This document shows, piece by piece, positions 44,834 through 45,268 of a stretch of DNA of 64,000 nt (positions are counted from its first letter, which is position 1; the number at the start of each line of letters is the position of its first letter). The notes below the pieces were generated by a model that saw only the letters and a list, made by a program, of their open reading frames with translations, was not told the DNA's origin and searched no databases. This stretch comes from Dyella acidisoli (GTDB lineage Bacteria; Pseudomonadota; Gammaproteobacteria; Xanthomonadales; Rhodanobacteraceae): the NCBI RefSeq assembly GCF_030160295.1, contig NZ_BSOB01000010.1:466901-530900 (forward strand), read 5' to 3'. A program made the position numbers and the translations under genes.

Positions 44834-44860
44834 GCTCCAAGTCGTCAAAAAGTCACGAAA

Positions 44861-44886
44861 AAAGGCGGCTCAGGGCCGCCTTTTTT
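44861..44886. terminator. Bidirectional rho-independent terminator
   Basis: Stem GGCGGC / GCCGCC with a 5-nt loop, flanked by A-run and T-run. It can end both the RidA gene (plus) and the SEC-C gene (minus), whose stop codon overlaps the T-run edge. Confidence 0.93.
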
Positions 44887-45115
44887 ATCGCACGTAATAA
44901 TGGCGTCCGGCACCATCGAACTTGCCGTTGCGCATGCAGCAGTTCTTGAAACAATCTCGCAGAACCGCAGGGGCAAGGATCATTGCGGCCGAGTTTCTCG
45001 AAACAACTCCTTGTCGCCGTGCACGATACGTACACCTTTTTTGACACGCTGCTCGGAAGGGAACCCCTTACGGCGTTTACTACTGCGCTCGAAAGCAGAA
45101 GTTATGGAATGACAT
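44885..45115 (-). pseudogene. SEC-C zinc-binding protein gene interrupted by three +1 shifts
   Basis: From an ATG at 45115 with a perfect AAGGAG site 7 nt upstream, the encoded protein becomes coherent only if one base is skipped at three places. Each place is the tetranucleotide TTTC, read as one Phe codon (minus strand 45094-45091, 45003-45000 and 44951-44948). The restored product is 75 residues: basic N-terminus with KRRKGF, then [20 protein letters not shown], and a SEC-C zinc motif [10 protein letters not shown]...FKNCCM (CxC-8-CC), ending HYYVR at a TAA. Unshifted frames end early. Two of the three shifts precede CGA. Decay, sequencing error and recoding are all possible. Confidence 0.6.
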
Positions 45116-45268
45116 GGCACATCTCCTTGGCCTGCCCGTTAGCGGGCGCGGCATGATAGCCCGGATGCTCCCTTCATTCGCACATGCCCCGGCTCACCCA
45201 AGAGCGCATGATGGGCGAGCAGCCCGGGCGCTGTGCCCGCTGCCACCGTTCATAGCGAGGGCCTTCCC

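Follow-up and report, generated by a model that had tools for sequence, protein, structure and literature searches.

A widespread family of small SEC-C genes that probably needs about three programmed +1 frameshifts at UUU-pyrimidine

A SEC-C gene that is complete only with three +1 shifts

The gene at 45115-44885 on the minus strand of a window of Dyella acidisoli DNA (the window being the whole stretch of 64,000 nucleotides (nt) that was analysed) gives a single SEC-C protein of 75 residues only when three +1 shifts are made, each of them at TTTC; in the standard frame, the ATG at 45115 leads to a stop after 11 codons. Based on the comparison of sequences, it is highly probable that the gene is functional, belongs to a widespread, unannotated family of small SEC-C proteins and would need about three programmed +1 ribosomal frameshifts for its translation. 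The gene is conserved, its conserved protein is obtained only when the shifts are made, and these are located at UUU-pyrimidine; its translation, efficiency and function are predicted from this pattern.

All features of the gene lie on the minus strand. The start frame covers seven codons (MSFHNFC, 45095-45115) up to shift site 1 (45091-45094), a UUU-C with CGA as the next zero-frame codon. The second segment, in +1, comprises 30 residues (45004-45093) and leads to shift site 2 (45000-45003), again UUU-C with CGA next. The third segment (+2 overall; 17 residues, 44952-45002) leads to shift site 3 (44948-44951), a UUU-C with CAA next, where the start frame is regained and FKNCCMRNGKFDGAGRHYYVR is read up to and including the stop (44885-44950), a TAA at 44887-44885. 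The coordinates that an earlier sequence-only reading of the window had given for the gene and for the three TTTC words are exact, as is its 7-nt spacing of the Shine-Dalgarno sequence from the ATG, and the 75-residue product that it had obtained by taking the three TTTC words as phenylalanine (Phe) was reproduced and ends at the stop. Its UUU-CGA context at two sites is that of sites 1 and 2, and the remaining four Phe codons, which it had said to need no shift, are all TTC.

Conservation of the offsets in Dyella and Rudaea

A DNA search of the genomes of 60 relatives, 15 of them of the same genus, revealed near full-length matches in 7 of these 15 and, outside the genus, in Rudaea; one of the genomes carrying the gene is a single contig. 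The window, the seven same-genus genomes and Rudaea made up an aligned set of nine loci, in which no gap was found over 231 nt and the three +1 offsets were identical. The variable columns of this alignment at codon positions 1/2/3 numbered 4/6/25, 1/0/13 and 10/6/18 in the second, third and fourth segments, respectively, each counted in its own shifted frame, and the seven-codon first segment was without third-position bias (6/1/4). In two relatives, TTTTGA stands at site 1 (UUU-UGA, so that the zero frame meets a stop), and in Rudaea the word at site 2 is ATTCGA (AUU-CGA). The sequence-only reading had asked whether the three TTTC words are conserved in related species or replaced by TTC; they were kept as shift sites in all nine loci. 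As is characteristic of programmed +1 frameshifting, the offset is conserved between species, with selection at the protein level on both sides of it. The same offsets, the lack of any indel and the third-position bias, found in independent genomes, exclude sequencing error and simple decay.

Two further copies were seen beside this set. In Rudaea, a second copy (L029, G023 C1:878663-878790) is missing its N-terminal part and retains site 2 (as AUU-C) and site 3. A Dyella-like copy (L065, CAJCJD010000076.1) is found under the title Candidatus Eremiobacteraeota, which is probably wrong, the genome set placing the record in the genus of the window.

One decoding rule across the family

The searches yielded 113 loci, of which four were duplicates, and the remaining 109 distinct loci were used to ask under which single rule a complete protein can be read from a start codon close to the match. 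The standard code gave no full protein and four partial ones. When UUU plus a pyrimidine was read as a four-base Phe word, 89 of the 109 loci were decoded in full and 2 in part, compared with 57 in full for TTTC alone, 13 for TTTT alone, 3 for UUU before a purine and 7 for the best of 60 other rules of a codon plus a pyrimidine. The unshifted Phe codons of the 89 loci are 150 TTC and 29 TTT before a purine; the count of zero for unshifted TTT-pyrimidine follows from the rule itself.

A frameshift-tolerant alignment, in which the rule was not used but for which the profile had been built from the rule-decoded proteins, gave 203 events: 202 were +1, one was +2 and none was -1. TTTY (Y, pyrimidine) was found at 187 of these events. 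No adjacent shift was called for 31 TTT-Y Phe codons: 19 of them concern the last Phe, at the end of the local alignment, 7 belong to T runs of site 1, and the Phe of GFPSE accounts for the remaining 5, which are real exceptions.

The strict form, by which every UUUY shifts, fails in 20 of the 109 loci; the causes are unshifted UUU-CC, AUU-C, AAG-G or, in others (among them L051, L061, L075, L091, L120, L123 and L145), probably truncation, start choice or damage. A narrower rule, with UUU shifting before YRR (R, purine) or CCG, decoded 91 of the 109 loci and removed four of the five GFPSE exceptions, and the addition of AUU brought the number to 94. When AAG-G was admitted as a further four-base word, the yield fell to 50 of 109, which shows that AAG-G is no general rule.

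Words, places and number of the shift sites

At the 250 sites of the narrower rule, the next zero-frame codon was CGA in 71, CAA in 70, UGA in 46, UAG in 28, CAG in 15, CCG in 13 and UAA in 7, stops thus making up 81 of 250. This pattern is partly due to the rule and to the acidic or basic residue after Phe: the rule dictates the YRR/CCG class but not the absence of CGG and UGG. The sense codons among the seven (CGA, CAA, CAG and CCG) are generally regarded as slow, and CGA accounts for 11% of the Arg codons in the open reading frames of the window. A slow or a stop codon comes next in the zero frame, as in programmed +1 frameshifting. At UUU-C/U, the transfer RNA for Phe (tRNA-Phe, anticodon GAA) is able to re-pair in +1; AUU-C and AAG-G re-pair less well. 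TTTC accounts for 42 of 84 site 1 words and 70 of 80 site 3 words.

The sites occupy five places, namely the Phe before E (1), ELF-EK (2), the F-K of the zinc motif (3), the Phe before DG (4) and a Phe near the C terminus (5). Site 1 of the window is used in 83 of the 89 decoded loci and site 3 in 80, and site 2 is found mostly in the Dyella group. The sets of sites were 135 in 42 loci, 134 in 13, 13 in 9, 123 in 8 and others in 17; 134 is found in several phyla, as is 135, and the set of Dyella, 123, also occurs in a Chloroflexi locus. Three sites per gene were found in 66 of the 89 loci, two in 21 and four in 2, with two of the two-site loci undercounted (L037 by start choice, L143 by AUU-C). 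The variance of the site count was 0.21, compared with 0.68 when the sites were shuffled independently, and none of 5000 shuffles was as low, a comparison that ignores shared ancestry and so overstates the case. The near-constant number of three, the exchange among up to five Phe positions, the stop-codon versions (UUU-UGA, UUU-UAA and UUU-UAG) and the Shine-Dalgarno spacing of site 2, which resembles that of prfB, go beyond what the sequence-only reading had seen.

Shine-Dalgarno-like elements upstream of the slip words

Anti-Shine-Dalgarno pairing of -6 kcal/mol or better upstream of the slip word was found at a fraction of 0.75 of 8 at site 2 (6/8) and 0.29 of 79 at site 3, compared with 0.074 in the control (7.4% of 6298 positions). 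In the window, a Shine-Dalgarno-like AAGGAG (45007-45012) is located 3 nt 5' of the slip codon of site 2 (AAGGAG-UUG-UUU), which is the prfB spacing; PMC12421855 gives 3 nt between the Shine-Dalgarno-like element and the slip codon of prfB. Shine-Dalgarno stimulation was rejected as a general cause, since it is enriched only at site 2 and at part of site 3.

In six Lysobacteraceae-type loci, site 3 is without UUU-Y, and GGAGG is located three bases 5' of a frame change at AAG-G. This looks like another ribosomal solution at the place of site 3, perhaps a second kind of +1 site. The AAG-G frame change lies about 110-170 nt after the FE start in these loci.

Proposed mechanism

The comparisons point to slippage of tRNA-Phe. 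With the A site occupied by a slow or stop codon, the peptidyl-tRNA-Phe on UUU in the P site would wait, release UUU and re-pair one base further on with UUC or UUU, and translation would continue in +1. As in prfB, a Shine-Dalgarno-like sequence 3 nt upstream may assist at site 2 and to some extent at site 3. Translation without a slip would end within a few codons, so that the full protein would be scarce or conditional and would rise steeply with slippage. The +1 slippage of Phe-tRNA at UUU-C proposed in the sequence-only reading is supported by the nine aligned loci and by the same kind of site across many phyla. In PMC3617221, peptide sequencing is reported to show a forward slip of peptidyl-tRNA-Phe at UUU-CAA under shortage of the Gln tRNA, and UUU-CAA is the word of site 3 in the window gene. 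A review (PMC5009743) states that slips of this kind may be inhibited by the bulky base at position 37 of tRNA-Phe. That a single programmed +1 shift can be efficient is shown by prfB, where it reaches 52.7% in B. subtilis (PMC12421855).

Several points weigh against this mechanism. UUU-CC is unshifted at the GFPSE Phe in L070, L113, L118, L119 and L139; AUU-C is used in three loci (L060, L064 and L143), and in the six Lysobacteraceae-type loci (L042, L052, L056, L058, L059 and L127) the shift seems to take place at AAG-G. Sites 1 (0.08 of 83), 4 (0.07 of 27) and 5 (0.02 of 51) lack Shine-Dalgarno help. Unless each of them is very efficient, three successive slips would yield little protein. 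TTT-Y makes up 1085 of 6118 Phe codons in ordinary neighbouring open reading frames and 73 of 471 in those of the window. UUU-Y being so common in ordinary genes, it cannot alone suffice for slipping, and a genome-wide four-base reading of UUU-Y is ruled out. Either a further signal would reside in the messenger RNA (mRNA), or the protein would be meant to be scarce or conditional.

A tentative extension, which we regard as doubtful, is that the mRNA cooperatively senses slippage of the reading frame, which is then answered by a SEC-C protein of ribosome-binding type, with the number of slips held near three while their places move. With about three slips in series, the output would go with about the third power of the UUU slip rate. 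A modest rise in slippage (by undermodified A37 of tRNA-Phe, a shortage of the CGA or CAA tRNA, or weak termination) would then sharply turn the gene on, and such a sensor would offer a new means of monitoring the quality of translation.

Alternative explanations

RNA polymerase slippage or RNA editing could drop one U per site and leave the ribosomes in frame. The sites are short U runs, a few of them long (seven T at sites in L138 and in the viral contig L196), but only three U are present in about half of the site 1 words and in most site 3 words, and three-U runs are too short for polymerase slippage as usually described. Ribosomes are also indicated by the influence of the next zero-frame codon and, at site 2, by a Shine-Dalgarno spacing like that of prfB, and this explanation is improbable. 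To the same degree improbable is a special tRNA or protein factor for which UUUY in the A site would be, perhaps conditionally, a genuine four-base codon. Although the rule acts almost like a four-base codon in 89 of the 109 loci, ordinary genes retain UUU-Y, and the 48 tRNA matches of the window genome, among which only the tRNA-Phe loop was read by eye, include one tRNA-Phe gene with an ordinary seven-base loop (TTGAAAA). The enlarged anticodon loop expected of a four-base suppressor tRNA is lacking in the sole tRNA-Phe of the window genome. With one ordinary-loop tRNA-Phe and no candidate four-base decoder, the best reading is an ordinary tRNA-Phe slipping in the P site. Separately, low-scoring extra tRNA-Asn and tRNA-His genes, adjoining end to end, were seen in the window genome (L189, G000 C46:396900-397350).

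The standard reading is broken in 109 of 109 loci, as it would be in a pseudogene with accidentally kept protein similarity; this is very unlikely and is refuted by conservation, given the third-position bias after every shift, the identical offsets, the +1 events and the same type of site across phyla. Sequencing or assembly error at short T runs, named in the sequence-only reading as the main rival, has nothing beyond the homopolymer character of the sites in its favor and is hardly credible. It is refuted by the relatives, in which the same offsets occur in independent genomes, the single-contig genome included, and error would be neither restricted to +1 nor selective for stop contexts. 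We give as little credence to a regulatory leader, in which the zero-frame peptide alone would matter and the shifted product would remain unmade: unshifted ribosomes would indeed stop early (after 11 codons in the window), but selection acts on the shifted frames up to the C terminus, and no conserved downstream gene was found (the largest neighbor cluster covers 5 of 80 loci).

Comparison with known systems

The prfB gene has in common with this family a bacterial +1 shift, peptidyl-tRNA re-pairing on an overlapping codon before a slow or stop codon, and wide conservation; its Shine-Dalgarno-like element 3 nt upstream may have a counterpart at site 2 and a weaker one at site 3. In contrast to prfB, with one site (CUU-U before UGA), the present genes have two to four sites of UUU-Y before sense or stop codons, are mostly without Shine-Dalgarno help, and encode a SEC-C protein rather than a release factor. 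The CUU-U before UGA in a release factor gene that marks a prfB-type cassette is absent.

UUU-pyrimidine slip sites were reportedly described in E. coli by Schwartz and Curran in 1997. These sites and the UUU-CAA slip share with the family the slip codon, the direction and the dependence on the following codon, but they are test constructs or errors, whereas the family sites are conserved and required. In influenza PA-X, a +1 slip occurs at UUU-CGU, whose UUU-CG resembles the sites described here and fits the type of site; PA-X has one site, is read by eukaryotic ribosomes and yields an extra product, whereas the shifted product is the only full one here. To our knowledge, the bacterial cases, those in the open-licence literature searched included, have one programmed shift per gene, and in that literature neither this family nor any bacterial gene with a need for three shifts was found to be described. 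A chain of fewer than 90 residues with two to four +1 shifts, exchangeable sites and one word rule raises the question of how such a chain can be made. The family offers dozens of natural sites from which to learn what makes UUU slip, and the gene would be a natural test bed for reading-frame slips and perhaps a natural sensor.

The SEC-C protein and the flanks of the gene

The Pfam SEC-C model (PF02810) matches residues 43-61 with 37.5 bits (cut-off 20.4, E 2.1e-9), and this zinc motif (44930-44987) is split by shift site 3. Residues 40-59 are matched by the C-terminal peptides of SecA and YchJ from solved structures; the CxC...CC zinc motif is common to the family and to these SEC-C proteins (the SecA C-terminal tail and YchJ), which, unlike the window family, are encoded in ordinary reading frames. 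For the KRRKG...PSE...VHGDKEL part, no NCBIfam model above the cut-off and no other Pfam model at E 1 was found.

The Shine-Dalgarno sequence AAGGAG (45123-45128) is separated by 7 nt from the ATG at 45115, and anti-Shine-Dalgarno pairing at the start codons averaged -10.2 kcal/mol in 88 decoded relatives. No sigma-70-like promoter was found at the window gene. The terminator noted earlier is present as a hairpin with a T tail (44858-44886) and is also aligned in relatives, but the hairpin alone is not significant, with 1 found and 1.1 expected in shuffles.

Distribution and genomic neighborhood of the family

A query of the 30-residue segment that separates site 1 from site 2, which disregards the shift sites themselves, gave 467 related stretches in GTDB species genomes, the best 80 of which were retained. 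The labels among the matches include Acidobacteria, Verrucomicrobia, Alpha-, Beta- and Gammaproteobacteria, Planctomycetes, Chloroflexi, Melainabacteria, Gemmatimonadetes and others, although labels of metagenome bins may be wrong. The distribution is patchy: the family was found in 33 of 398 sampled genomes of the order and in 7 of 398 of the phylum, two of the seven being weak partial matches. Two plasmid records carry the family, the gene being unannotated in both, and the NCBIfam and Pfam libraries searched hold no name for it; gene finders therefore probably miss the family. None was found in the phage records searched. Three viral contigs carry the gene, of which one decodes fully and one needs the last UUU-U to be unshifted. 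In L196 (2961-3200; 532,729 bases), which has no site 1, the full protein is obtained only with a shift at the UUU-C of the GFPSE Phe, unshifted elsewhere, and two UUU-Y shifts in the seven-T run.

No conserved neighbor or operon was found among the 80 loci. Some Acidobacteria, Melainabacteria and Caulobacterales loci are syntenic. In Dyella, five of six compared 10-kb regions (L063, L067, L073, L081, L065 and L064) share only the gene with the window. Within the genus, the gene, its start region and the hairpin (window 44853-45130) are found together in differing neighborhoods, as if moving alone.
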